Shown piece after piece: positions 16,566 to 35,202 of a stretch of DNA of 64,000 bases. The notes beneath the pieces are model-generated. The model ran no database searches. It was not told where the DNA came from and saw nothing but the letters and a program-made list of their open reading frames with translations. Within the stretch, counting starts at the first letter, position 1. Each line of letters starts with the position of its first letter. The DNA is taken from positions 111,890 to 175,889 of the forward strand of contig JAFDVO010000017.1 of the NCBI GenBank assembly GCA_018268955.1. Direction: 5' to 3'. Position numbers and translations under genes: made by a program. The DNA is from Acidobacteriota bacterium. Its GTDB lineage: Bacteria > Acidobacteriota > Vicinamibacteria > Vicinamibacterales > CAVVIG01.

Positions 16566-18266
16566 ATGACGCGCAGGACCTCATGGTGGCGGACTGCGGT
16601 GCTCACAGCCGCGTGCGGGCTGGTGATGCTGCCCGCGGGTGCGCACGCACAGGCACAGGCAACGGCCGACGGGATTCCGGTCGAGAGTGAGCTCGTGCGC
16701 AGCAAGTGCGGCGGATGCCACAAGCCAGACGCCAGCAACCGGATGACCCGCATCTCGTGGCGGCGGGCCAGTCCGGAGAACTGGGAGCGAACGGTCGAGC
16801 GGATGATCACCCTCAACAAGGCCAACGTCACTCCCGCGGACGCCAGGACCATCGTGAAGTACCTGGCCGATCACAACGGCCTGGCGCCGGAGGAGGCCCG
16901 TCCGATCGCATTCGAGTTCGAGCGGCGGTTGATCGAGTGGACCTACGACGGCGACAAGGATGTGGCGACCCTCTGCGGCGGCTGCCACGCCTTCAGCCGC
17001 GTGCTGGCCGAACGCCGGACGAAGGACGAGTGGGCTGGACTGGTCTCGATGCACCGCGGCTACTACCCGCTGGTGGACAACCAGCCGATCCTCAACGGTT
17101 CAGGGTTCCGTCGGTCGCGCGCGCTGCCGCCCGAGGAGACCGACCACCGCCAGCCGATGGACAAGGCGATCGAGTACTTCGCGAAGACGTTCCCGCTCAT
17201 CACGCCAGAATGGTCCTCCTGGTCGGCGGCCATGACGCCGGCCAACCTCTCCGGGCGGTGGGCTGTCACCGCGAACATCCCCGGGAAAGGGCCGGCGTTC
17301 GGCGAGATGACGGTGACGGCTGATGCCGCCCCCGACACGTTCATCACGAAGACGGTGCTGACGGTGCCGAAGACCGGCGAGACGATCGCTCGCACGGGCA
17401 AGGCGCTCGTCTACACCGGATACCAGTGGCGCGGACGCGGCGCTGACGCTGCCAAGCCGGACGATCCGTGGCGTGAGGTCATGTTCGTCGAGCGCAGCCG
17501 TACCGAGATGTGGGGCCGCTGGTTCACCGGGGCATACGACGAGACCGGCATCGACGTGAAGCTCGCGAAGATCTCCGGCTCACCCATGGTGCTCGGTCTC
17601 GGGCAGCTGTCCGCGAAGCGCGGCACCTCGCCCTCGCTCACGATCTACGGCATCAACCTGCCGACTGCGCTCGCGGCCTCCGACGTGAACCTGGGCCCTG
17701 GCATCACGGTGCGCTCTGCGTCCGTGTCGGCTGGCGTGGTCACCGCTCAGGTCACCGTGGCGCCCGACGCGAAGACCGGCCCGCGCGACGTCTCTGTCGG
17801 CGGCGTCGTCAAGCCGCTCGCGCTCGTGGTCTACGACCAGGTCGACGGCATCCGCGTGCTGCCGCGCGCGGGGCTCGCACGCACTGGCGGAGCGGTGTTC
17901 CCGAAGGGCTTCCAGCAGTTCGAGGCGATCGCCTTCGCCAACGGCCCTGACGGCAAGCCGAATACGGCCGACGACTGGCCGCTCGGCGTGGTCGACGCCA
18001 CGTGGGGCGTCGAGGAATACACCTCCACGTTCAACGACGATGACCTCCGCTTCGTGGGCAACATCGACCCGAAGAGCGGGATGTTCACGCCCGCGCTCGA
18101 CGGACCGAACCCCGAGCGGAGCGGGAACCGCAACAACATCGGGGATCTCTGGGTGACCGCCGAGTACGCGCCGGAGGGCGCGAAGCAGCCGATCCGGGCC
18201 CGTGCCCAGCTCGTGGTCTCGCCGCCGGTCTACATGCGGTGGATGTCGTCGGAGGTGGGGAAGTGA
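16566..18266 (+). CDS. qhpA: Quinohemoprotein amine dehydrogenase alpha subunit (dihaem)
   Basis: A 566-residue periplasmic protein from the ATG at 16566, which has GGAGCGGAGA upstream and a signal peptide cleaved near AHAQAQ. The N-terminal dihaem domain has two CGGCH sites at residues 48-52 and 137-141. Three beta-rich domains follow, including an Ig-like IPT-type stretch (SLTIYGINLPTAL), as in domains II-IV of known QHNDH alpha subunits. It carries electrons from the CTQ of the gamma subunit to external acceptors during oxidative deamination of primary amines. Its stop codon overlaps the qhpD start. Reading order A-D-C-B-F-E matches the core operon known from Paracoccus and Pseudomonas. 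Confidence 0.92.
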   Translation: MTRRTSWWRTAVLTAACGLVMLPAGAHAQAQATADGIPVESELVRSKCGGCHKPDASNRMTRISWRRASPENWERTVERMITLNKANVTPADARTIVKYLADHNGLAPEEARPIAFEFERRLIEWTYDGDKDVATLCGGCHAFSRVLAERRTKDEWAGLVSMHRGYYPLVDNQPILNGSGFRRSRALPPEETDHRQPMDKAIEYFAKTFPLITPEWSSWSAAMTPANLSGRWAVTANIPGKGPAFGEMTVTADAAPDTFITKTVLTVPKTGETIARTGKALVYTGYQWRGRGADAAKPDDPWREVMFVERSRTEMWGRWFTGAYDETGIDVKLAKISGSPMVLGLGQLSAKRGTSPSLTIYGINLPTALAASDVNLGPGITVRSASVSAGVVTAQVTVAPDAKTGPRDVSVGGVVKPLALVVYDQVDGIRVLPRAGLARTGGAVFPKGFQQFEAIAFANGPDGKPNTADDWPLGVVDATWGVEEYTSTFNDDDLRFVGNIDPKSGMFTPALDGPNPERSGNRNNIGDLWVTAEYAPEGAKQPIRARAQLVVSPPVYMRWMSSEVGK

Positions 18267-19711
18267 CGCACCTTGCGCTCCGTGAACATCACCGCTTCGA
18301 GGCAGCAGGCAAGCCGTACCTGTTCCTGGTGCCCAGCGCGGCGGTGGTCGGCCTCGATGCCGCGTCCGACATGGTGATGCAGGTGCTCGCCTCGGGTGAG
18401 AAGTCCCGGGCTGACCTGCTGACGCTGGCTGACGGGCTCTTCAGCGAAGACGAGATCGACGGCGCGATTCACGACCTCGTGGCGATGCGCGCGATCGGTC
18501 CCATCGAGCCCCAGCAGCCGATGCCGAAGATCCTGCCGCTCACGCCCGTGCCGCTCGGCACGATGGTGCTGAACGTCACCAACCAGTGCAACCTCGCGTG
18601 CACCTACTGCTACGAGTACGGCGAGGACAAGATCGTCGACACGGACAACGGCAAGCAGCCGAAGTTCATGTCGATCGAGACCGCGAAGCAGAGCGTCGAG
18701 TTCATGCTGAAGGAATCGGGTGAGGCGAAGACCGCCCACCTGACCTTCTTCGGCGGCGAGACGCTCCTGAACTTCAAGGTGCTGAAGGAAACGATCGCTT
18801 ACGCACGGCAGCGTGCCGCGGAACTCGGGAAGGACGTCGACTTCAGCCTCACCACGAACGCCACGCTGCTGAAGCCGGACGTGATCGAGTACCTGGTCCA
18901 GAACCAGGTGGGCGTAACCATATCGTTCGACGGCCCGCCAGAGGTGCAGAACAAGTTCAGGGTCTTCCACAACGGCACCGGCAGCTACGACATCGTCGCG
19001 CCGAAGATCAAGGAACTGCTGCAGAAGCATCGTCGTCGTCCGGTCGGTGCGCGCGTGACGCTCACGTCCGGGAACCTCGACGTGAAGGGCATCTACCGCC
19101 ACCTGACCGAGGAGTTCGGATTCCGCGAAGTGGGCTTTGCCCCGGTCACGACGTCGGCAAAGCGGACCTACGCGCTCGACGAGCAGGGCTACGACCACAT
19201 GCTCGCGCAGTTCACCGCGCTCGCCGAGGACTTCAAGGAGGCGGCGATTGAGGGGCGCCACCACGGCTTCTCCAACGTGAAGGAGACCATCCAGGAGATC
19301 CACCAGGGGATGAGCAAGGCGTACCCGTGTGGTGCGGGCATCGGGCTGATGGGAGTGTCGACGGCAGGCGACGTGGCGCTCTGCCACCGCTTTGCCGGCT
19401 CTGACACGCACAAGCTCGGGACCGTGCGCGACGGCGTGGACCGCGCGGCGCAGACCGCCTTCCTCGAGTCGCACCACCTCGCGAACAAGACCGACTGCAG
19501 CACGTGCTGGGCACGTCCGGTCTGCTCGGGCGGCTGCTACCACGAGGCCCACACCCGTTACGGCGACACGACGAAAGCGAACCTCCACTACTGCGACTGG
19601 ATCCGGTCGTGGACCGAGGTCTGCCTGAAGGTCTACGCCGAGATCGCAGAGAAGAACTCCGCGTGGCTGGCGCAGTTCGATCGCGAACCGGCCGCGGAGA
19701 AGGTCAGCTAG
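18263..19711 (+). CDS. qhpD: Radical SAM maturase forming thioether cross-links in the gamma subunit
   Basis: A 482-residue radical SAM/SPASM protein. The SAM cluster motif CNLACTYC gives Cys109, Cys113 and Cys116. The C-terminal Cys-rich region (CSTCWARPVCSGGC, then HYCDW) should hold auxiliary iron-sulfur clusters. An N-terminal segment of about 85 residues looks like a PqqD-type peptide-binding wing. QhpD is known to join Cys to Asp or Glu side chains of QhpC by C-S bonds in the cytoplasm. The GTG at 18263 is preferred: GGAGGTGGGG lies just upstream and the start overlaps the qhpA stop, which suggests translational coupling. Confidence 0.92.
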   Translation: MTHLALREHHRFEAAGKPYLFLVPSAAVVGLDAASDMVMQVLASGEKSRADLLTLADGLFSEDEIDGAIHDLVAMRAIGPIEPQQPMPKILPLTPVPLGTMVLNVTNQCNLACTYCYEYGEDKIVDTDNGKQPKFMSIETAKQSVEFMLKESGEAKTAHLTFFGGETLLNFKVLKETIAYARQRAAELGKDVDFSLTTNATLLKPDVIEYLVQNQVGVTISFDGPPEVQNKFRVFHNGTGSYDIVAPKIKELLQKHRRRPVGARVTLTSGNLDVKGIYRHLTEEFGFREVGFAPVTTSAKRTYALDEQGYDHMLAQFTALAEDFKEAAIEGRHHGFSNVKETIQEIHQGMSKAYPCGAGIGLMGVSTAGDVALCHRFAGSDTHKLGTVRDGVDRAAQTAFLESHHLANKTDCSTCWARPVCSGGCYHEAHTRYGDTTKANLHYCDWIRSWTEVCLKVYAEIAEKNSAWLAQFDREPAAEKVS

Positions 19712-19726
19712 CGCCAGAGGAGATCA

Positions 19727-20089
19727 ATGAGACACCTGAAGACGCTGAATCAGAAGGCTGCTCGCATCGAGCAGATCGTGAACGAACAGGAAGCCGCCGC
19801 TGCCCAGGCCGAGGATGTCGTCGCGCTGCAGCGTGGAGGGGGCGTGCCGCAGTCGGCCCCGCACATCCCGCTTGGCTGCGCCGTGGTCTTCTCGCCCGGG
19901 TGGGAAGTGGATCGCACGGGTGGAACGGCCGGTCTGTGCCAGCCGGTCGAGCGCGATCTCTTCGACTGCCACATTGGCTGCTACTGGCCCGCGCAGGTAC
20001 CGGACCAGCTCAATCACGCGCCGGACTGGACCGCCAAGTGCGCGGCCGCCCAGAAGGACTGGCGCAAGATCGACCTCATCTTCCCGTAA
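19727..20089 (+). CDS. qhpC: QHNDH gamma subunit precursor (CTQ-bearing, cross-linked peptide)
   Basis: A 120-residue precursor. The spacing of Cys and acidic residues matches the published gamma-subunit cross-link map. Cys51-Glu60, Cys71-Asp77 and Cys85-Asp93 correspond to the three thioether bridges. Cys81 and Trp87 correspond to the pair that forms cysteine tryptophylquinone. Cys105 is an additional cysteine with no partner in that map. By alignment to the mature N-terminus of known subunits, the leader would be about 42-44 residues, longer than the roughly 28 reported for Paracoccus. The leader is charged and helical at its start (residues 1-30). A GAGGAG site precedes the ATG. Confidence 0.93.
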   Translation: MRHLKTLNQKAARIEQIVNEQEAAAAQAEDVVALQRGGGVPQSAPHIPLGCAVVFSPGWEVDRTGGTAGLCQPVERDLFDCHIGCYWPAQVPDQLNHAPDWTAKCAAAQKDWRKIDLIFP

Positions 20090-20107
20090 CAGGAGAGCCG
20101 AGCCACC

Positions 20108-21250
20108 ATGCGCACATTTCGCTTCTGGAGTCAGGCTCTCCTCGCCAGCGCCGCCATTGCGGTGCTCGGGCTGCCGCTCGCCGCCCAGAGCAAGGCGAAG
20201 CCGATCACCCCCTCGCCTGGCAACGGCACGTTGTACGTTGGCGTCTTCCCGGACCACTTCCAGGTCATCGACGAGGCCACGGCCACGATCGTGGGCAAGG
20301 TGCCGTTCACGGTCGGCATGCCGCGGCGCACGTCGCTGTCGCGGGACCGCACCCGCTTCTACACGGTCGAGGCGCAGCAGGAGAAGGTCGAGATCATCGA
20401 CATCGCCACCCGCAAGTCGCTCGATCACTTCACGCTCTCCGAGGGCACCCGCAAGGTCCGGATCAAGACGCTCGAACCGGATCCGCTGCACCGCTTCGTG
20501 ATGATGGTCATCCGCCCGGTCGTCAAGCACGTCGACCGCTGGGAAATCGAGCCGTCGTCGCTCATCCAGTACGACCTGGCCACCCACAAGGTCGCCAGCA
20601 CGCTGCCGTGGCCGAACGGTGAGGAGCGTGAGAACGCGAACATGCAGTTCTCGCCAGACGGCAAGCTGCTCTACCTGTTCAGTGAGCAGGACGTGCTCAT
20701 CTACGACACCACGACGTTGAAGCAGGTGGACCGGTGGGAGCTCTCGAAGCCGGTCGAAGAGGGCTTCGGCGCGTTCGAGTTCGGGCAGATCGACGCCGCC
20801 AACGACGAACCGGGCTTCTACACCGCGATGTTCCAGGTGCAGGACCCGGTGCAGAAGCGCCGGATGATGGGCATCGGCCGCGTGAACCTCAGCGCGCGCA
20901 AGGTGGACTTCTACACTCTCGGCCCGGCGCAGCAGGTCGGCTTCACGATGGCACCAGGGCGGAAGGTCGCCTACGGCCTGATGAGTGACATCGGGAACTA
21001 CGAGTTCTGGAAGTTCGATCTGGACATGAAGCGCGTCTCGGCCCGTGTGCCTTTCAACGGCCGGCCACGCATGTCGCTGAAGACCAGTTCGAACGGGAAG
21101 GTGCTCTATATCTACAACGCGGGGAACACGATCGACCTTTACGATGCCGAGACGTTCAAGTACATGCGAACGATCGATCTCGGAGGCGACGTGACCTCTG
21201 ATCTGTTCGTCGTCCCCGGCGCCGCGCCGAAGGCCGCACGGACCAACTGA
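20108..21250 (+). CDS. qhpB: QHNDH beta subunit (seven-bladed propeller)
   Basis: A 380-residue periplasmic protein with a signal peptide cleaved near PLAAQSKA and YVTN/WD40-like blades (for example NGTLYVGVFPDHFQVID and GKVLYIYNAGNTIDLYD). In the known enzyme this propeller packs against the cross-linked gamma subunit and helps form the amine-binding pocket. It begins 18 bases after qhpC with AGGAGAG upstream of the ATG. Length is in the range of known beta subunits. No catalytic motif is expected in this chain. Confidence 0.9.
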   Translation: MRTFRFWSQALLASAAIAVLGLPLAAQSKAKPITPSPGNGTLYVGVFPDHFQVIDEATATIVGKVPFTVGMPRRTSLSRDRTRFYTVEAQQEKVEIIDIATRKSLDHFTLSEGTRKVRIKTLEPDPLHRFVMMVIRPVVKHVDRWEIEPSSLIQYDLATHKVASTLPWPNGEERENANMQFSPDGKLLYLFSEQDVLIYDTTTLKQVDRWELSKPVEEGFGAFEFGQIDAANDEPGFYTAMFQVQDPVQKRRMMGIGRVNLSARKVDFYTLGPAQQVGFTMAPGRKVAYGLMSDIGNYEFWKFDLDMKRVSARVPFNGRPRMSLKTSSNGKVLYIYNAGNTIDLYDAETFKYMRTIDLGGDVTSDLFVVPGAAPKAARTN

Positions 21251-21254
21251 CACG

Positions 21255-22997
21255 GTGACGCCCTCCCATCCACGTCAGCACCTGCGCCGGGCGCTCCGGT
21301 TCGCGCTGCCGTACTGGCGGCGACTGGCGCTGGTGCTCGTCCTCAGCCTGGCGAGCACCGGCCTGTCGCTCGTGCTGCCGCTCCTGTCGAAGTCGTTCTT
21401 CGACACGGCGCTGCTCGGTCGTGACATGACCGCGCTGCTCCGCACATCAGCGCTCTTCGCGGTCGCCACGATCGTCGGGTTCGTGCTCAATGTCGTAGCG
21501 GGCCTGCGGTACACGCGCGTGTCGGCGGACATCCTGTTCGACATGCGGCTCGAGATGTACCGCCACCTGCTGCGGCTCTCCCCGCGCTTCTACGCGCGGA
21601 CCCGCATCGGCGACATCATGTCGCGCATCAACAACGACATCGGCGAGATCCAGCGGGTGGCGGCGGAGGCCGCGCTCGCCTGGGTCGGCAACGTCGCCTT
21701 TCTCGTCGGCACCGTCGTGATGCTCGCCTGGCTCGACATCCGGCTGTTCCTGGCGACGATGGCCGTGGCGCCGATCGGCATCTGGGCGACCGGCTATTAC
21801 CGCAAGCGGCTCGAAGGGCAGGTGGGTGAACTACGGCAGCGCAGCGCCGACCTGGGGAGCTTCCTGATCGAGACGATTCAGGCGATGCGGCTGGTTGTGC
21901 TGAGCAACGCGCAGGACCGCGAGGTGTCGCGCTTTCGCAAGCGGAACATCGCGTTCGTTGACGCGCTGATGTCGATGCAGTACCTGACCTACGTGTCCGG
22001 TGCGCTGCCAGGCCTGATCCTCTCGGCCGGCACCGGCCTCGTGTTCATCTACGGCGGTTATCGCGTCGTACATGGCGAGATGACCGTCGGCACGTTCGTC
22101 GCGTTCATCGCCTACCAGTCACGCTTCCTGCCTCCACTGCAGGCGCTGATGGGGTTGTACGCGAGCCTGGCGACCGCGCAGGTGTCGCTGCAGCGGGTAT
22201 CCGAGATCCTCGATGCGCCGGTCGACGTGCAGGAACTGCCCGACGCGACCGCGCCAGACAGCGTGCGTGGGCTCGTGGAGTTCTCGAACGTCAGTCTCTC
22301 CTACGGCAGGGGCCGTCCGGCGCTGGAACGCATCTCATTCCGTGTCGAGCCCGGTGAGGTGCTGGCGATCGTCGGCCCGAGCGGCAGCGGGAAGTCGACG
22401 ATCGCGGACCTGCTGCTGCGCCTCATCGACCCGGACGAAGGGACCGTGCGCATCGACGGTGTCGACGTCCGTCGCATCAACCTGCGCGTGCTGCGAAGGC
22501 ACGTGGCGCTCGTTGACCAGGATCCGTGCATCCTCCACGCGTCGGTTGCGGAGAACATCCGCTACGGACGGCCTGACGCATCCGACGAGGACGTGCGCCT
22601 GGCAGCACGGCAAGCGGCGCTGGAGCCGTTCATCGACTCGCTGCCCGAGGGATTCGAGACGGTCGTGGGGGAGCGTGGAGCCGCCCTCTCCGCCGGTGAA
22701 CGGCAGCGGATCGCCACAGCACGTGCGTTCCTCGCGAATCCGGCCGTGTTGATTCTCGATGAGCCGACGGCGTCGCTCGATCCCGATGCCGAGCGGCGGC
22801 TGATCGACGGGTACGAAACCGTCATGCGGCACCGCACGACGATTGTGATCACCCACCGCCTCGATGTGGCGAGCCGGGCGGATCGCGTGCTGGTGGTCGA
22901 CGGCGCACGGCTTGTCGAGCAGGGCGCGCCGCACGAACTCGCGATGCGAGATGGACGATTCGCGGATCTGTTCCATGCGCCAGCGGTCACGCACTGA
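21255..22997 (+). CDS. qhpF: ABC exporter of the qhp locus
   Basis: A 580-residue half-transporter: six membrane helices in the first about 310 residues, then an ATPase with Walker A GPSGSGKST, signature LSAGERQRI and Walker B VLILDEPTAS. There is no N-terminal C39 peptidase domain, consistent with leader removal by the separate QhpE protease. In known systems QhpF is required for producing active enzyme and is proposed to move the modified gamma subunit across the inner membrane. It starts with GTG four bases after qhpB and overlaps qhpE by 23 bases. Confidence 0.88.
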   Translation: MTPSHPRQHLRRALRFALPYWRRLALVLVLSLASTGLSLVLPLLSKSFFDTALLGRDMTALLRTSALFAVATIVGFVLNVVAGLRYTRVSADILFDMRLEMYRHLLRLSPRFYARTRIGDIMSRINNDIGEIQRVAAEAALAWVGNVAFLVGTVVMLAWLDIRLFLATMAVAPIGIWATGYYRKRLEGQVGELRQRSADLGSFLIETIQAMRLVVLSNAQDREVSRFRKRNIAFVDALMSMQYLTYVSGALPGLILSAGTGLVFIYGGYRVVHGEMTVGTFVAFIAYQSRFLPPLQALMGLYASLATAQVSLQRVSEILDAPVDVQELPDATAPDSVRGLVEFSNVSLSYGRGRPALERISFRVEPGEVLAIVGPSGSGKSTIADLLLRLIDPDEGTVRIDGVDVRRINLRVLRRHVALVDQDPCILHASVAENIRYGRPDASDEDVRLAARQAALEPFIDSLPEGFETVVGERGAALSAGERQRIATARAFLANPAVLILDEPTASLDPDAERRLIDGYETVMRHRTTIVITHRLDVASRADRVLVVDGARLVEQGAPHELAMRDGRFADLFHAPAVTH

Positions 22998-23769
22998 AGG
23001 CCGGCGGTTGCCCGGGCGCGGCGTGTGCGTCGCCGTCATCGACAGCGGCGTGCATGCCGCACATCCGCATGTGCGTGGCGTCGCGGGCGGGGTGGCCATC
23101 CAGCCTGGCGGAGCGGTGTCGGGCGATTACACGGACCGCATCGGCCACGGCACGGCGGTCATGGCCGCCATCAAGGAGAAGGCGCCCTTCGCGGACTGCT
23201 ACGCGGTCCGCATCTTCGACAACCGGCTCTCCGCATCGGCCCCGACGCTCATTGCTGCAATCGACTGGGCGGTGGCGGCTCGCGTGCACGTCATCAACCT
23301 GAGCCTCGGCACCGCGAACCTGGCTCATGCCGACGCCTTCGATGGGGCAGTCGCGCGTGCGGCGGCGGCTGGCGTGACGATCGTCGCCGCGCGAGACGAC
23401 GAGGGGGTGGAGTGGCTGCCGGGGAGCCGGCCCGGCGTCGTGGGTGTGCGGGCAGACTGGACGTGCGGGCGCGACGTGTTCACCGTGGAGCGGCTGGACT
23501 CCGGCTCCGTGGTGTTCCGGACCTCAGGCTACGCGCGGCCGATCCCGGGCGTGGACCCTCGGCGCAACCTGCACGGGGTCAGCTTCGCGGTCGCGAACAT
23601 GACCGGCTTCCTGGCCCGCGCCCTGAGCCTGGAGCCGGACGGCCAGGCCGCTGATGCGGTTGAGACGCTGGTGCGTTTCGCGTCGTGGCGTGACGGGCGC
23701 GCGCACGAAAAGGAAAAGGCCGGCAGGTGGGAGCACCTGCCGGCCTCGATGGTCCTCAGAGAGCGCTGA
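22975..23769 (+). CDS. qhpE: Cytoplasmic subtilisin-like leader protease
   Basis: A 264-residue S8-fold protein with no signal peptide. Catalytic candidates are Asp23 (VAVIDSGV), His58 (IGHGTAVM) and Ser203 (HGVSFAVA). The usual oxyanion Asn block (AAGN) is replaced by AARDDEG, which is atypical. QhpE is known to remove the QhpC leader after cross-linking. The ATG at 22975 is chosen because it overlaps the qhpF end and starts shortly before the first beta strand; ATG 22951 is an alternative. The last about 15 codons overlap a strong hairpin that serves the convergent gene as a terminator. Confidence 0.85.
   Translation: MRQRSRTEGRRLPGRGVCVAVIDSGVHAAHPHVRGVAGGVAIQPGGAVSGDYTDRIGHGTAVMAAIKEKAPFADCYAVRIFDNRLSASAPTLIAAIDWAVAARVHVINLSLGTANLAHADAFDGAVARAAAAGVTIVAARDDEGVEWLPGSRPGVVGVRADWTCGRDVFTVERLDSGSVVFRTSGYARPIPGVDPRRNLHGVSFAVANMTGFLARALSLEPDGQAADAVETLVRFASWRDGRAHEKEKAGRWEHLPASMVLRER
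23705..23745 (-). terminator. Rho-independent terminator inside the qhpE 3' end
   Basis: A 12-base stem (GGCCGGCAGGTG / CACCTGCCGGCC, 23718-23745) with a four-base loop is followed on the minus strand by TTTTCCTTTT. It is placed to end transcription of the minus-strand gene that stops at 23775, yet lies wholly in the qhpE coding sequence. Confidence 0.8.
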
Positions 23770-23774
23770 GCGGG

Positions 23775-24698
23775 TTACTGCTGACCGGTCACGCGCGGGG
23801 CGCCGTTCGCGGTCACGTTCACCTTGATCATCGCGGTCGTCCAGCAGCAGCCCGTCGCGCCGCCGCCCTTCTCCGAGTAGTCGTTCAGCGTGACGTGGAC
23901 GACGTACTCGCCCGCCTTGTCGAAGGTGACGGTGCCTGCGGCCTTGCCCGCGTAGGGTTCCATCGGCTTGCCGCCCTTGAGCGTCTCGAAGTGGAAGCCG
24001 TCAGCCTTCACGTTGCCCGGTCCGCGGTACTTCTCGACCGTCGCTTCGACGACGGGGGGCGTGCGCGTCATCGGCGCGTTCGTCCCGCTGGCGTAGAGGG
24101 CGTCGTCTTCGGTGAAGAGCTCGAGCGCCATCGGCACGTTCACCTGCGCGGTGCGGGTCTGTGCGCTGGCGAGCGCGGCGACCGGCGCCTGGATGGCAGG
24201 GCCGTTCTGCGCGAAGCGCAGGATCGGAGGAACGTTGTACTTGCCGTTCGGCGCCTCTTCGGAGGCGTGCTGCGGCGTGATGTTGAAGTCGGGGCTCATG
24301 ATCATCCCGACACGCGAGGTGGTGCCGTTGAGCGTGAGGGTCCACCAGAGGCGCTCGGAGGCGCCGAAGGTCTTCGGGACGGTGATCTGGAACATGCCGA
24401 AGTTGCGGTTCGGCAGGAAGTGCGTCGGCTGGCCGCGGTCGACGTCGCCAGGCTCGAACTTGTTGTTCGGGCCGATCGGGATGTCCACGCTCTGGGTCCA
24501 GTTGCGGTTGTAGTACCCGATCAGGAACACGTGCGAGCCATCCGGATTGTCGTACCAGCCGTCGTAGGCCGGGGTGACGCTGGCGCCGAATCCCAGCTTC
24601 GGGTAGCTCGGAAGGAGCTGGCCCTGGGCCGAAACCAGAGCGCCGCCAGCGGCGAGGGCAGCGACCGTCATCAGACGGAGAACCATCGGTGATTTCAT
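23775..24698 (-). CDS. Secreted protein of unknown function, copy 2 of duplicated cassette (B')
   Basis: A 307-residue protein with a signal peptide (MKSPMVLRLMTVAALAAGGA, cleavage near VSAQGQ). It is a clear paralogue of the protein at 26681-27574, sharing long near-identical stretches such as YDGWYDNPDGSHVFLIGYYN and the C-terminal GGGATGCCWTT. The predicted fold is beta-rich and may include an Ig-like C-terminal domain (TVTFDKAGEYVVHVTLNDYS). No catalytic motif was recognised. It follows a cytochrome-copper monooxygenase-like gene in the same orientation, as its paralogue does, so the two products probably work together. It converges on qhpE with a five-base gap. Confidence 0.75.
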   Translation of the reverse strand: MKSPMVLRLMTVAALAAGGALVSAQGQLLPSYPKLGFGASVTPAYDGWYDNPDGSHVFLIGYYNRNWTQSVDIPIGPNNKFEPGDVDRGQPTHFLPNRNFGMFQITVPKTFGASERLWWTLTLNGTTSRVGMIMSPDFNITPQHASEEAPNGKYNVPPILRFAQNGPAIQAPVAALASAQTRTAQVNVPMALELFTEDDALYASGTNAPMTRTPPVVEATVEKYRGPGNVKADGFHFETLKGGKPMEPYAGKAAGTVTFDKAGEYVVHVTLNDYSEKGGGATGCCWTTAMIKVNVTANGAPRVTGQQ

Positions 24699-24809: not shown

Positions 24810-26225
24810 CTACTGCTGCTGCTGCTGAGTGCGGTTGCGCGGCGGGACGCCGTTGGTCACGCCTTCACCGTGCTTGGCGACGTAGTCCTTGTACTCCTCG
24901 TCCGTGAGGTAGTAGACGTTCATCCACGCGTGCGCCATCTCGTCAACCGTGCGGTCGCCGTAGCCCACCCACTGATCCGGGTCGGGGTTCGACTTGTTCG
25001 CCTTCGTGTTGTCGTAGTACGCGCTGACCTTGATGATGGTGCCCTTCGGGAACACCGGCACCGCGTCGTCCGCGAAGATGTAGTTGGTCATCCAGTTGAA
25101 GTTGAAGTCCTTCACGTAGCTGATGGTCTGCGTGCGGCCATCCGGGAAGATCGCCTCAACCTGCATCGCCTTCCCACGGAGGTGGAAGTGCGGCTGGAAG
25201 TTCGTGATCGCCGTGTTCTCCTTCAGGACGTTGAAGCCCTCGGTGTAGGCGATCGAGTTCGGCGGGATGTCCAGGCCTTCCGTGCCGTTCTTCAGGCCGG
25301 TGAAGCCCACGAGGTAGCTGCGCTTCTTCGGCTCCTGGCCCTTGGGATACAGCCAGATGCCGAGCTGCGACGCGCTCGTCACGGCCTCGCCGGCGGCGTG
25401 AATGTGCTGGTCCCAGGAGATCTTCTCTCCCGGCATGATCAGCTTGCCGGTGCCTTCGGCGTAGCGGTCGTAGCCCTTGCCGATCGCCCACTCCATCAGC
25501 TGGGGACGACGGTTGACGAGGTCAGCGGCGCTCGCCGCGGCCGACCCGGACAGGGAGAAGCGGCCGACGCCGACGCCCTGGTTGACAGCGGCGGTGTTGT
25601 CGGGGCTGAGGATGTGATACGCGATCGAGTGGTGCAGGATCTTGCGGCCTTCGACGTTGGCCGGACGAATCTCCACCATCTTGACCCAGCGCGGCTCGGT
25701 CACCGGGATCTCGTTGACCGGGCGCCACCACTCGTCCTGGTGGACGGCGGGCATCGTCTGCATCGGGGCGGAGATGACGAGGTCCGGCGGGCCGTAGCCG
25801 TCACGCTCGCCCTGCCAGTACAGCTCCTTGTTCACCGGCTTGGCCTTGAAGTCCGCCGGGTTGCCCTCGAGCGCGCCGCCGTCGACCCAGGCCGCGATGG
25901 TCGCGACCTGCTCGTCGCTGAGCGACATGTCGTTCTTGAACTTCTGGACACCGACGCTGCGGTCGATATGCCACGGCGGCATCTGCCGCGATTCGACGCG
26001 CTGCTTGATCGAGCGCGCCCACGGGCGGGCGTCCTGATAGGTCACGAGCGACATCGGGCCGATCGAGCCCGGCTCATGGCAGGACTGGCACTTGGCCTGA
26101 AGAATGGGCGAGACGTCCTTCGTGAACGTCACCTGCTTTTGCTGCGCTGCGGCCGACCCCGGGAGAGCGCAGATGGCGCCGAGCACGAGGGCGCCTGCTC
26201 CCAGCTGGAGCTTCGAACCAGGCAT
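24810..26225 (-). CDS. Cytochrome c fused to copper type II monooxygenase-like domain, copy 2 (A')
   Basis: A 471-residue secreted protein from the ATG at 26225 (AGGAGCC upstream). Signal peptide, then a cytochrome c domain with CQSCH (46-50) and a likely axial Met in QMPPW (82). The remaining about 300 residues show the PHM/DBH copper-ligand pattern: His198-His199 (ILHHSIAYH), His274/276 (WDQHIHAAG), His346 and His348 (FQPHFHLRGK), and Met430 in RTVDEMAHAW. These correspond to the CuH and CuM sites of peptidylglycine alpha-hydroxylating monooxygenase. Substrate unknown. The haem could deliver electrons to copper in place of ascorbate, which is inference. The protein ends in five glutamines. 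Confidence 0.8.
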   Translation of the reverse strand: MPGSKLQLGAGALVLGAICALPGSAAAQQKQVTFTKDVSPILQAKCQSCHEPGSIGPMSLVTYQDARPWARSIKQRVESRQMPPWHIDRSVGVQKFKNDMSLSDEQVATIAAWVDGGALEGNPADFKAKPVNKELYWQGERDGYGPPDLVISAPMQTMPAVHQDEWWRPVNEIPVTEPRWVKMVEIRPANVEGRKILHHSIAYHILSPDNTAAVNQGVGVGRFSLSGSAAASAADLVNRRPQLMEWAIGKGYDRYAEGTGKLIMPGEKISWDQHIHAAGEAVTSASQLGIWLYPKGQEPKKRSYLVGFTGLKNGTEGLDIPPNSIAYTEGFNVLKENTAITNFQPHFHLRGKAMQVEAIFPDGRTQTISYVKDFNFNWMTNYIFADDAVPVFPKGTIIKVSAYYDNTKANKSNPDPDQWVGYGDRTVDEMAHAWMNVYYLTDEEYKDYVAKHGEGVTNGVPPRNRTQQQQQ

Positions 26226-26614
26226 CCGTGGCTCCTTTCGAAAACGAAACATCCTGACGGTTGATATGCGCGGTGGCGGCCCAGCCGCTCACGCGTCGGC
26301 GGCCAGACTGCAGGAGCTGTGCCGTAGAAGAACCTGCTGAAATCAGGAGGAATTTCGTTCGAAAGCGTGTGGCGGGTCGTGGCGAGACTGCGGAGATTTT
26401 CGCGCGCCCAGTGATTTTTCCCGGGGCTCTCGCGCGGGGACGATCCGCGGCAACTCCGTCCCTCACGCCGGGAATCCGGCGCAGGCGCGCCGACGCTGCG
26501 CGACGCCGACGCCCACAGCCTGGAAGCCGCCGGGGCTGAAGCCGGCCACGCCTCAAAGCCTGCAGCGCGAAGCCCAGAGCCCGACGCCCAGCGCCTGGAG
26601 CCTGGCTCCGTAAG
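26226..26614. other. Intergenic region between duplicated cassettes
   Basis: About 390 bases with no supported gene. The right part (26520-26605) carries stuttered words based on GAAGCC/AGCCCAGAGCC and a decayed REP core (CCGGGGCTGAAGCCGG, about 26528). The promoter for the downstream minus-strand gene should lie in 26230-26400, which is locally richer in A+T (near 26335-26360), but no -35/-10 pair is convincing. Confidence 0.4.
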
Positions 26615-26648
26615 AAAAAAAAGGCCGCTCCACCGAAGTGAAGCGGCC
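26611..26648 (-). terminator. Rho-independent terminator after B
   Basis: The minus-strand stem GGCCGCT / AGCGGCC, extended by imperfect pairs across CACCGAAGTG, is followed by eight T residues and then CTTA. It lies 33 bases past the stop of the minus-strand gene ending at 26681. Confidence 0.85.
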
Positions 26649-26680
26649 CTTCTGCAGTCGATGACGCGCGTCGCGCGGAC

Positions 26681-27574
26681 TTACTTGACTGCGACCTTGA
26701 CCATCGAGGTGGTCCAGCAGCAGCCGGTCGCACCGCCACCCTTCTCGGAGTAGTCGGTCAGCAGCACGTGCAGGATGTAGTCGCCAGCCTTGTCGAAGGT
26801 GACCGTGCCTGAGGTCTTGCCGGCGAACGGCTCCATCGGCTTGCCGCCCTTGGTGGCCTTGAATTCGTGCAGGCCGTCGACCTTGATGTTGCCCGGGCCG
26901 CGGTACTTGGTGATTTCCGCTTCCACCACCGGCGGCGTGCGCGTCATCGGCGCGTTCGTGCCGCTCGTGTAGAGCGCGTCGTCCTCCGCCCAGAGCTCCA
27001 GCGGCATCGGGGTGTTCACCGTGGCCGTCTTCGAGATGGCCGTCGCCACCGAGGCAATCGGATTCTGGATGGCCGGACCGGATTCAGTGAACTTCAGAAT
27101 CGGCGGCACGTTGTACTTGCCGTTCGGCGCTTCTTCCGACGACTTGTTCGGCGTGATGTTGAAGTCGGGGCTCATGATCATGCCGACGCGCGACGTGACG
27201 CCGTTGATCGTGAGGGTCCACCAGAGGCGCTCGGACGCGCCGAAGGTCTTCGGAACGGTGATCGTGAACATGCCGAAGTTCCGGTTCGGCATGAAGTGCG
27301 TCGGCTGGCCACGGTCCGGATCGCCCGGCTCGAACTTGTTGTTCGGGCCGATCGGGATGTCGACCTCCTGGCTCCAGTTGCGGTTGTAGTAGCCGATCAG
27401 GAACACGTGCGAACCATCGGGATTGTCGTACCAGCCGTCGTAAGCCGGCGTCACGCTGGCGCCGAATCCCAGCTTGGGGCTGCTCGGAAGGAGCTGGCCC
27501 TGGGCCGAGACCAATGCACCGCCGGCCGCGAGCGCGGCAACCGTCGCTAGGCGCAGAATCATCCGTGAGTTCAT
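26681..27574 (-). CDS. Secreted protein of unknown function, copy 1 of duplicated cassette (B)
   Basis: A 297-residue paralogue of the protein encoded at 23775-24698, with the same signal peptide type, the same GYYNRNW, PNRNFGMF and RTPPVVEAEITKYRGPGN-type blocks, and the C-terminal GGGATGCCWTT. It ends ten residues earlier than its paralogue. The adjacent CysCys-Trp motif near the C-terminus is the most distinctive conserved element and could bind metal or form a disulfide. Its own terminator and the terminator upstream of it suggest that it can be transcribed separately from the cytochrome gene. Function unknown. Confidence 0.75.
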   Translation of the reverse strand: MNSRMILRLATVAALAAGGALVSAQGQLLPSSPKLGFGASVTPAYDGWYDNPDGSHVFLIGYYNRNWSQEVDIPIGPNNKFEPGDPDRGQPTHFMPNRNFGMFTITVPKTFGASERLWWTLTINGVTSRVGMIMSPDFNITPNKSSEEAPNGKYNVPPILKFTESGPAIQNPIASVATAISKTATVNTPMPLELWAEDDALYTSGTNAPMTRTPPVVEAEITKYRGPGNIKVDGLHEFKATKGGKPMEPFAGKTSGTVTFDKAGDYILHVLLTDYSEKGGGATGCCWTTSMVKVAVK

Positions 27575-27680
27575 GCTGACTCTCTACCGAAGAAGATGCT
27601 GGGATCGTTATACATCGCCGCCACACCGACGACGAAAGCGGGGACGATTGTAACCGAGGTCAACACATAGCAAAGGCATA

Positions 27681-27720
27681 AAAACGACAAAAGGGGAGCG
27701 GGGCTGTTGCCCCGCTCCCC
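27681..27720 (-). terminator. Rho-independent terminator after A
   Basis: A perfect 12-base stem (GGGGAGCGGGGC / GCCCCGCTCCCC, 27693-27720) with a four-base TGTT loop is followed on the minus strand by TTTTGTCGTTTTT. It lies 30 bases beyond the stop of the minus-strand gene ending at 27750. Confidence 0.9.
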
Positions 27721-27749
27721 TTCGTCGGTCGAGCTCGGCGACGGTCGCC

Positions 27750-29168
27750 TTACTGCTGTTGCTGCTGCGTGTTCGCCTGGGGCTTCACGCCGTTGGTGAC
27801 GCCCTCGCCAAACTTGGCGACGCGCTCCTTGTACTCCTCGTCAGTGAGGTAGACGACGTTCATCCAGGCGTGCGCCATCTCGTCGACGGTGCGGTCGCCG
27901 TAGCCCACCCACTGATCCGGGTCAGGGTTCGACTTGTTCGCCTTCGTGTTGTCGTAGTAGGCGCTGACGTGGATGATCGTGCCCTTCGGGAACACCGGGG
28001 CGGCGTCGTCCGCGTAGATGTAGTTCGTCATCCAGTTGAAGTTGAAGTCCTTCACGTAGCTGACCACCTGCGTGCGGCCATCCGGGAAGATCGCCTCGAC
28101 CTGCATCGCCTTCCCGCGCAGGTGGAAGTGCGGCTGGAAGTTCGTGATGATCGTGTTCTCGCGGAGGACCGTGAAGCCCTCGGTCGCCGCCACCGAGTTC
28201 GGCGGGATGTCGAGGGCGGCCGTGCCGTTCTTCAGGCCGGTGAACGCCACGAGGTAGCTGCGCTTCTTGGGTTCCTGGCCTTTCGGGTAGAGCCACAGGC
28301 CGATCTCCGACCCACCGGTGATCGCCTCACCAGCCGCGTGAATGTGCTGGTCCCAGGAGATCTTCTCTCCCGGCATGATCATCTTGCCGGTCCCTTCGAG
28401 GTACCGGTCGTAGCCCTTGCCGATCGCCCACTCCATCAGCTGCGGACGACGGTTGACGAGGTCAGCTGCGGCCTGCGCTGCCGAGCCGGAGACGGAGACC
28501 TGGCGGCCGCCGATGCCGGTGTTCACCGCGGCGGCGTTCTCCGGGCTGAGGATGTGGTAGGCGATCGAGTGGTGCAGGATCTTGCGGGACTGGAGGTTGG
28601 TCGGCCGGATTTCGACCATCCGGACCCAGCGCGGCTCGGTCACCGGGATGTCGCTGACCGGGCGCCACCACTGGTCCTGCGAGACGGCCGGCATGGTGTA
28701 TTCCGGCGCCTTGATGACGAGGTCCGGCGGGCCGTAGCCATCACGCTCGCCCATCCAGAAGAGGTCCTTGGCAACCGGCTTCGCCTTGAAGTCGGCCGGG
28801 TTGCCCTCGAGGGCGCCGCCGTCGACCCAGGCCACGATGGTCGCGACCTGCTCGTCGGTGAGCGACATGTCGTTCTTGAACTTGGTCACGCCGACGCTGC
28901 GGTCGATGTGCCACGGCGGCATCTGCCGCGACTCGACGCGCTGCTTGATGGAGCGCGCCCACGGGCGGGCATCCTGATAGGTGACCAGCGACATCGGGCC
29001 GATCGAGCCCGGCTCGTGGCACGACTGGCACTTGGCCTGAAGGATGGGGGACACGTCCTTGGTGAACGTGACCTGCTTGGCCTGCTGTGCGAACGCAGCG
29101 CCGGGCAGGGTGAGGAACGCGCCGACCGCGAGCGCCGTTCCCAGGTGGAGCTTCGAACCAGGCATCAT
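27750..29168 (-). CDS. Cytochrome c fused to copper type II monooxygenase-like domain, copy 1 (A)
   Basis: A 472-residue (or 471 from the second ATG) secreted paralogue of the protein encoded at 24810-26225. It keeps the CQSCH haem site, QMPPW, ILHHSIAYH, WDQHIHAAG, FQPHFHLRGK and RTVDEMAHAW motifs, so both copies have every expected haem and copper ligand. Differences cluster in the signal peptide and in surface segments such as residues 145-165. The C-terminal Gln5 is conserved too. Such proteins are easily labelled only as cytochrome c because the haem domain is the strongest match. Cellular location is periplasmic by signal peptide. Confidence 0.8.
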   Translation of the reverse strand: MMPGSKLHLGTALAVGAFLTLPGAAFAQQAKQVTFTKDVSPILQAKCQSCHEPGSIGPMSLVTYQDARPWARSIKQRVESRQMPPWHIDRSVGVTKFKNDMSLTDEQVATIVAWVDGGALEGNPADFKAKPVAKDLFWMGERDGYGPPDLVIKAPEYTMPAVSQDQWWRPVSDIPVTEPRWVRMVEIRPTNLQSRKILHHSIAYHILSPENAAAVNTGIGGRQVSVSGSAAQAAADLVNRRPQLMEWAIGKGYDRYLEGTGKMIMPGEKISWDQHIHAAGEAITGGSEIGLWLYPKGQEPKKRSYLVAFTGLKNGTAALDIPPNSVAATEGFTVLRENTIITNFQPHFHLRGKAMQVEAIFPDGRTQVVSYVKDFNFNWMTNYIYADDAAPVFPKGTIIHVSAYYDNTKANKSNPDPDQWVGYGDRTVDEMAHAWMNVVYLTDEEYKERVAKFGEGVTNGVKPQANTQQQQQ

Positions 29169-33910: not shown

Positions 33911-35089
33911 TCACGGCGCAGCGGACGGTGCCCCCAGCCCGGTGTAGACGAACTTCTGCACCCGCTTGCCCTCGTACGTCTCCCCGACGAACAGGTCGCC
34001 TTTCGCGTTGCGCGCCATCACGTGCGCGCCGTAGAACTGGCCGGCCATGTGCCCGTGGCCCCCGAACGTGCTCACCACCTGCAGCGTCTGCCGATCGAGC
34101 ACGTAGATCAGCTGATTCGTCCCGTCGTTCACGAAGAGGAACGTCTGCTGCGGATCCGTTGAGAACGCCACGTCCCATACGGAGCCGCTCCCGAAGGTCT
34201 CCTTCGCAATGAACTGCTCGCGGACGAACGTGCCGTCCTTGCGGAAGACCTGCAGTCGATCGTTGGTGCGGTCGCAGACGTAGACGAGCCCGTCCTTCGC
34301 AATGCGGACGGCGTGCACGATCCGGAACTGCGGCGCTGGCGGACCGTTGGGGTCGTACTGGCTGGGACGCACCTCGTTCTGCACCGCGCCGCTGAACGGC
34401 CCCGGCAGCTTCTCCCCCTGCCTCGTGAACCACCCATCGTCCGGTCGGTTGCCGTACGCGCCCCAGTGCCGCTTGTAGGCGCCGGTGGTCGCGTCGAAGA
34501 CGATGACGCGGTGGTTGACGTAGCCGTCGGCCACATAGAGTTCGTTCGCGGCCGCATCCAGCTCGATGTTCGCAGCGGCGCCCAGGTTCTCGATGTCGTT
34601 GCTGCCGCGCCCCTTGCCCTGATGGCCGATCTGCATCAGGAACTGTCCCTGCCGCGTGAACTTCAGGATCTGCGCGTCCTTGTCGCCGCCCGCGCCGAGC
34701 CACACGTTGTCCTTGTCGTCGACGAGAATGCCGTGCTCGAGCTGCGGCCACTCGTAGCCCTCACCGGGCCCACCCCACGACGACACGAGGTTGCCGTCCG
34801 TGTCGAACTCGAGCACTGGCGGCGCAGCCTTCCAGATCGATCGTGTTTCGTTCGGCTGCAGCGTGGATGGCCGATGGGTCACCCACACGTGATCCCTGGC
34901 GTCGACGGTGATGCCAGCGACCGCCCCGAGAATCCAGTGGTTGGGCAGCGGCCGCGGCCAGAACGGGTCCACCTTGAAGGTGGGCACCTTCCGCTGTGGG
35001 GGACGCACCTGGGCCACCAGCGTCACCGCAGCACACCCGGCGGCTGCGATCAGGACGACCAGGACGGAACGGGCAGACCGAATGAACAC
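33911..35089 (-). CDS. Secreted NHL-repeat propeller, PAL-like
   Basis: A 392-residue protein with an N-terminal signal or anchor segment (SVLVVLIAAAGCAAVTLVAQ) and six NHL-type blades. The blades LYVADGYVNHRVIVFD, IVHAVRIAKDGLVYVCDRTN and FYGAHVMARNAKGDLFVGET line up with peptidyl-alpha-hydroxyglycine alpha-amidating lyase (PAL). Three His residues (in LEHGILVDD, IVHAV and GAHVM) match the PAL zinc ligands, and the Tyr in DGYVNHR matches its catalytic Tyr. The Met near the third His of PAL is not kept. PAL-like chemistry is therefore possible but unproven; many bacterial NHL proteins are only binding platforms. Start codon is GTG. Confidence 0.75.
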   Translation of the reverse strand: MFIRSARSVLVVLIAAAGCAAVTLVAQVRPPQRKVPTFKVDPFWPRPLPNHWILGAVAGITVDARDHVWVTHRPSTLQPNETRSIWKAAPPVLEFDTDGNLVSSWGGPGEGYEWPQLEHGILVDDKDNVWLGAGGDKDAQILKFTRQGQFLMQIGHQGKGRGSNDIENLGAAANIELDAAANELYVADGYVNHRVIVFDATTGAYKRHWGAYGNRPDDGWFTRQGEKLPGPFSGAVQNEVRPSQYDPNGPPAPQFRIVHAVRIAKDGLVYVCDRTNDRLQVFRKDGTFVREQFIAKETFGSGSVWDVAFSTDPQQTFLFVNDGTNQLIYVLDRQTLQVVSTFGGHGHMAGQFYGAHVMARNAKGDLFVGETYEGKRVQKFVYTGLGAPSAAP

Positions 35090-35107
35090 GCGCAGGGCCT
35101 CCAGGCA

Positions 35108-35202
35108 CTTGCTGATGGTTAATCCGTCATTGCCAATTGCTCATGGCGCTGATGGCCAGTTGCTGAATGCTAACGGCAATTGCGCATTGTCGAGTGCAGA
35201 TC
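35108..35202. repeat. Stuttered repeat with CAATTGC words
   Basis: Words of the type GCCAATTGCTCATGGC, GCCAGTTGCTGAATGC and GGCAATTGCGCATTG follow one another in the short gap between the NHL gene start and the end of the DUF72 gene. Several words are self-complementary. Confidence 0.6.

Follow-up and report, generated by a model that had tools for sequence, protein, structure and literature searches.

Secreted proteins joining cytochrome c to a PHM/DBH-like copper core, paired with a partner protein, in an Acidobacteriota genome

We analysed a 64,000-nt stretch of an Acidobacteriota genome (the window; assembly GCA_018268955.1, contig JAFDVO010000017.1, positions 111,890 to 175,889, forward strand), in which two genes, A1 and A2, encode secreted proteins that join a cytochrome c domain to a core like that of the copper enzymes peptidylglycine alpha-hydroxylating monooxygenase (PHM) and dopamine beta-hydroxylase (DBH). 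The G+C content of the window is 67.6%. The source genome (4.77 Mb in 58 contigs, 99.5% complete) has its relatives in the named collection chiefly among Acidobacteriota, including Vicinamibacterales and Luteitalea. On the minus strand the genes follow each other in the order A1, B1, A2, B2, with intervening gaps of 175, 455 and 111 bases, where B1 and B2 encode two copies of a partner protein. Indeed, the initial annotation had placed a paralogous partner after each A gene, and both were located there (27574-26681 and 24698-23775):

27750..29168, minus strand: A1 (P0002), 472 residues, predicted secreted cytochrome c-PHM/DBH-like copper monooxygenase
Parts of A1, approximate residues: signal peptide 1-28; cytochrome c domain 31-120; CuH domain 150-310; CuM domain 311-441
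26681..27574, minus strand: B1, 297 residues, secreted partner with two immunoglobulin (Ig)-like beta-sandwich domains; C285-C286 at 26717-26722
24810..26225, minus strand: A2 (P0001), 471 residues, second cytochrome c-PHM/DBH-like protein, all ten haem and copper residues retained
23775..24698, minus strand: B2, 307 residues, second copy of the partner

The monooxygenase core is not visible to routine annotation. It was missed by single-sequence searches of Pfam, NCBIfam and the Protein Data Bank (PDB), and alignments and structure were needed to reveal it. Taken alone, the window A proteins do not reach PF01082 or PF03712; Pfam and NCBIfam give at most a marginal cytochrome c, with Cytochrom_C/CBB3 families near the Pfam cut-off. 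The expectation that automatic annotation would stop at cytochrome c was thus borne out for both proteins. Among the 76 homologues that we collected for the family alignment (31-86% identical to A1), direct Pfam matches, with E up to 0.1, were obtained for Cu2_monoox_C (PF03712) in 7 and for Cu2_monooxygen (PF01082) in 4. A search of the phylum with PF03712 gave matches in 18 of 149 genomes, 15 of them above the Pfam cut-off. The profile of 23 aligned Acidobacteriota PF03712-positive proteins (the A4 set) matched rat PHM at 1.3e-12, with VHH, QVHY, HTH and DEM of the rat enzyme in register with the bacterial ligands. The same profile matched that of the window family with an E value of 1e-116 over 403 columns, spanning both cytochrome c and core. 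A4 proteins (for example L168, L171 and L016-L018) are thus homologous to A from end to end, and cytochrome c is present in all 21 of the 23 that cover the N-terminal region. They differ from A in that their sequences are more PHM-like, some reach 650-800 residues with C-terminal extensions, and most lie outside the clade paired with B.

Structure prediction led to the same superfamily. The AlphaFold2 model of A1, built on the family alignment (predicted local distance difference test score, pLDDT, 88.6; predicted template modelling score, pTM, 0.86), consists of three cytochrome-like helices followed by a largely beta, two-domain body. Comparison with PHM, which had been proposed as a check able to refute the initial annotation, left it standing: in a Foldseek search of the PDB the two-domain PHM/DBH core was recovered, and places 1 to 31 were all taken by DBH or PHM, with E values from 4.4e-12 to 2.4e-8 (4zel, 4.4e-12; 1phm, 1.3e-10). 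The match that followed this block was a PNGase; PNGase F has a PHM-like double jelly-roll.

The ligands of both copper sites are in place. In this superfamily CuH is held by three histidines and CuM by two histidines and a methionine (PMC4846438), the CuH ligands of PHM being H107, H108 and H172 (PMC6123673). The following residues of A1 were assigned (those of the copper sites by profile alignment, conservation and codons), and the counterparts in A2 were read as codons from the DNA:

29016..29030, minus strand: CQSCH haem c motif of A1 (C47, C50, H51), invariant in 76 of 76 homologues
28920..28922, minus strand: Met83 of A1 (MPPW), candidate axial haem ligand by its presumed role, invariant in 76 of 76
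28569..28574, minus strand: H199-H200 of A1, equivalent to PHM H107/H108, CuH site
28344..28346, minus strand: H275 of A1, equivalent to PHM H172, CuH site
28122..28130, minus strand: H347-x-H349 of A1 (HFH), equivalent to PHM H242/H244, CuM site
27876..27878, minus strand: M431 of A1 (Met of DEM), equivalent to PHM M314, CuM site
26076..26090, minus strand: CQSCH haem c motif of A2
25629..25634, minus strand: HH of A2, CuH site
25404..25406, minus strand: third CuH His of A2
25182..25190, minus strand: HFH of A2, CuM site
24936..24938, minus strand: CuM Met of A2

The claim that both proteins combine CQSCH with the full PHM/DBH ligand set therefore holds at the level of codons and of alignment to rat PHM. 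In the family alignment, mean column identity is 44% and only 23 columns never vary across the 76 homologues: C47, C50, H51, M83, P84, P85, H199, H200, H275, H347, H349, M431 and 11 others. A1 has 12 histidines, of which only six are invariant, namely the haem histidine and the five copper histidines. In QHIH it is the first histidine, the invariant H275, that serves as third CuH ligand; the second (H277) is variable (present in 65 of 76). Judged from the alignment, this conservation of haem and copper residues is not due to chance. Both copies retain all ten haem and copper residues; from the retention of the ligands the initial annotation had argued for function in each. The ratio of nonsynonymous to synonymous substitution (dN/dS) is 0.25 for A1/A2 and likewise 0.25 for B1/B2; by this measure purifying selection acts on both.

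The N-terminal 90 residues are probably a class-I-like cytochrome c with His/Met haem ligation. They show the features of a small helical c-type cytochrome, with a CxxCH motif (CQSCH), helices at residues 35-46, 64-79 and 105-116, and an invariant distal methionine, M83. A1 has only two cysteines, both within the haem motif, and so, unlike PHM, has no disulfides. The export signal of the A proteins was recognised by inspection. Since fold, ligands and homology agree in assigning the core to the PHM/DBH superfamily, we conclude from model and alignments that the A proteins are true fusions of cytochrome c with a PHM/DBH core carrying two predicted copper sites. They do not form a new category, as parts of this superfamily are already detectable with Pfam.

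PHM (PF01082 and PF03712; PDB 1PHM and 1OPM) resembles A in its two-domain beta-sandwich core, in the six ligands in register and in being secreted; A differs by its N-terminal cytochrome c and the linked partner B, and no peptidyl-alpha-hydroxyglycine alpha-amidating lyase (PAL) was found. The residues of PHM that we take to anchor the peptide, R240, N316 and Y318, align with Q345, H433 and W435 in the window A proteins, with E, I and L in another subfamily, and with further sets in other paralogues. This replacement makes peptide amidation unlikely, and the variation among paralogues speaks for differing substrates.

DBH (PDB 4ZEL), the best structural match of A, likewise has an extra N-terminal domain ahead of the core. 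That domain, DOMON, is Ig-like and shares its fold with the domain that carries haem in cellobiose dehydrogenase (CDH), but it lacks the haem ligands (PMC4846438). The N terminus of A, in contrast, is an unrelated c-type cytochrome, and a dimerisation domain like that of DBH was not seen at the C terminus. Lytic polysaccharide monooxygenases (LPMOs) have a one-copper histidine-brace site, and their fold differs from that of A. In Cellvibrio, cytochrome c (Cbp2D/CjX183) has been shown to stand in for ascorbate as the reductant of a copper LPMO (PMC8981238), although there, unlike in A, cytochrome and copper enzyme are separate proteins.

The partner B, about 300 residues long and secreted, was modelled with confidence as two beta-sandwich domains (pLDDT 90.2). 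Its fold search returned only generic Ig-like matches, some of high probability but with TM scores of 0.2-0.3, from which no function could be assigned, and Pfam gave only hints of PKD/Ig type. We counted A-B adjacency in those 80 loci that most resemble A1, with 88 assessable A genes. This search across genomes, which the initial annotation had suggested, confirmed the pairing: B lies directly downstream on the same strand in 75 of the 88. The source genome has ten A-B pairs, in one of which (L201) B is upstream of A. Across these ten pairs, distances between A proteins correlate with distances between B proteins (Mantel r 0.90, P 5e-5), indicating that the pairs were duplicated and inherited together. 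A vicinal cysteine pair, C285-C286, is found in 69 of 76 B proteins, the other seven having gaps at the site, and usually there is no further cysteine. B probably acts as a subunit, whether by stabilising A, by presenting the substrate or by aiding copper loading. In one genus (g103), short proteins (L071-L078; open reading frames of 166 residues) correspond to the first domain of B only, and such a protein adjoins an A-type gene in at least L075.

The source genome holds 19 homologous A genes. The full set of ten haem and copper residues is present in 18 of them; the remaining one (L210 5471-6658) has kept the cytochrome motif but not the core ligands. A tandem A pair on contig C22 (L198 7121-10321) is 93% and 92% identical to A1, more than the 86% shared by A1 and its neighbour A2, suggesting that the window pair is part of a wider expansion. 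Thus, of the tandem duplication originally described, the two adjacent A-B pairs are there, whereas a single duplication event does not account for 19 homologous genes with A1 nearer to the C22 copies. Relatives of the same family and order have up to 36-39 matches per genome, and in our census of Acidobacteriota, which sampled 199 genomes from 120 genera, A-type proteins occurred in 47 genomes and 34 genera. Plasmid searches gave no match for A, one weak, core-only Nonomuraea match for a relative and, with a long relative, only tetratricopeptide-repeat noise.

Some divergent family members are longer. In L208 4807-12027 (G000:C44) three A-type genes of 677-705 residues stand in a row without B; their C-terminal extensions resemble tetratricopeptide repeats (plasmid matches), and a short thioredoxin/redoxin-like open reading frame, recognised by eye, lies between two of them. 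An acidobacterial relative of 802 residues (L180 52-2457) has a long extra region, redoxin-like by eye, N-terminal to its cytochrome c-PHM-like core.

We consider it likely, from sequence and structural modelling, that A1 and A2 are exported copper monooxygenases wired to a c-type cytochrome. Periplasmic electron carriers would reduce the haem c of A, which would pass electrons one at a time to CuH and CuM. CuM would bind and activate O2 and hydroxylate a small substrate in the periplasm at a C-H bond, and neighbouring dehydrogenases could oxidise the product further. The respiratory cytochrome pool would in this way replace soluble ascorbate as the donor. We infer the use of haem as an ascorbate substitute, the flow of electrons from haem to copper, the monooxygenase chemistry and the class of substrate. 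The scheme has parallels in DBH, with its N-terminal DOMON, and in the Cellvibrio cytochrome, which sets a precedent for cytochrome c in the role of ascorbate with a bacterial copper monooxygenase. Proteins like pyrroloquinoline quinone (PQQ) dehydrogenases are encoded near several A genes, a putative association that would suit hydroxylation followed by dehydrogenation.

Several points weigh against this proposal. Whole-chain TM scores to PHM and DBH are modest (0.35-0.46 when normalised by the query and 0.50-0.64 by PHM, root-mean-square deviation 6-11 Å), probably owing to domain rotation; DBH itself has open and closed forms (PMC4846438). There is no adjoining B for 13 of the 88 A genes, nor for the tandem A genes of C22, so that a neighbouring B is not strictly required. 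Acidobacteria have expanded secreted redox-like families, and for some of these the NCBI name implies loss of the cofactor, as with 'acido-empty-quinoprotein' (TIGR04528), which was matched in this analysis; expansion alone is therefore no proof of catalysis. Such 'empty' families, together with the massive expansion of A and the conserved vicinal cysteine pair of B, would fit a protein that uses a PHM-like scaffold for copper binding, storage, delivery or sensing without turnover. We regard this as improbable, given that both full copper sites and the haem are retained in 18 of 19 paralogues and that the substrate-anchor positions vary by subfamily while the ligands stay constant, the pattern expected for substrate diversification of an active enzyme.

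A reversed flow of electrons is unlikely, though less so than a loss of catalysis. Here the same fold and metals would not hydroxylate; the haem would withdraw electrons, making A a copper oxidase or dehydrogenase, or an enzyme handling O2/peroxide or nitric oxide, that feeds the respiratory chain. A fused cytochrome c suits an acceptor role equally well, and the PQQ-dehydrogenase-like neighbours are donors to cytochrome c. However, A has exactly the CuH and CuM ligands of PHM and DBH, a group whose characterised enzymes hydroxylate at the cost of two electrons (PMC6123673, PMC4846438), and no new catalytic residue was identified. Far less probable than either is a split peptide-amidation system, with A as PHM and nearby NHL beta-propeller proteins as the PAL lyase. 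Such propellers ('FEVDPMWPKPLPNHW') recur near A genes (33911-35110, minus strand, in the window; L201 2445-4661; L208 1-3250), and rat PAL is among their PDB matches. Their best PDB matches, however, are the NHL domains of Thin and TRIM, and the aligned propellers have no invariant histidine, so that the PAL zinc triad is not conserved; in A, moreover, the presumed peptide anchors are replaced, as described above. We rejected the PAL assignment on the first two of these grounds.

The preferred reading, that of a cytochrome-wired monooxygenase, can be extended, with confidence just on the favourable side, to a major branch of the PHM/DBH superfamily in bacteria, so far unnamed. Its members would have their own cytochrome c donor, be independent of ascorbate and act with a dedicated two-Ig-domain partner, and in Acidobacteriota they would have radiated into dozens of periplasmic hydroxylases per genome, each specific for its substrate. 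We found no account of bacterial cytochrome c-PHM fusions in the literature covered, which excluded all bioRxiv preprints and most subscription journals; publications naming PF01082/PF03712 or type II copper-dependent monooxygenase concerned animals or unrelated topics. The results suggest a large, apparently undescribed set of bacterial O2-using enzymes independent of vitamin C, built on the two-copper core with which animals synthesise noradrenaline and peptide hormones. Accounts of PHM/DBH enzymes normally have ascorbate supplying the electrons to CuH and CuM; with a haem that is fused to the enzyme and visible by spectroscopy, their arrival at these sites could be followed directly. Members of the family are numerous in a phylum common in soil, and domain libraries mostly label them 'cytochrome c'. 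They could be a source of C-H hydroxylases that has escaped notice, and could connect catabolism in the periplasm with respiration.

Strong hairpins with T-rich tails lie 3' of A1, B1 and B2, so A and B may differ in their level of transcription, although the region-wide total of such sites is equal to the shuffled expectation. Two of them, from the consensus scan only, are:

27690..27723, minus strand: terminator-like hairpin of 15 pairs in the A1-B1 gap
26618..26653, minus strand: terminator-like hairpin of 16 pairs 3' of B1

Counted by eye, three of about eight genomic NHL clusters have an A gene no more than about 5 kb away; the propellers resemble PAL by fold type only. Convergent with B2, at a gap of 5 bases, is an apparently complete quinohaemoprotein amine dehydrogenase operon (16626-23769, plus strand), which also holds an ABC exporter and a subtilase besides the following:

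Dihaem alpha subunit: PF09098/PF09099/PF09100/PF14930; TIGR03908
Radical SAM maturase: TIGR03906
Cysteine tryptophylquinone (CTQ) gamma subunit: PF08992
Beta-propeller subunit: TIGR03907, below cut-off

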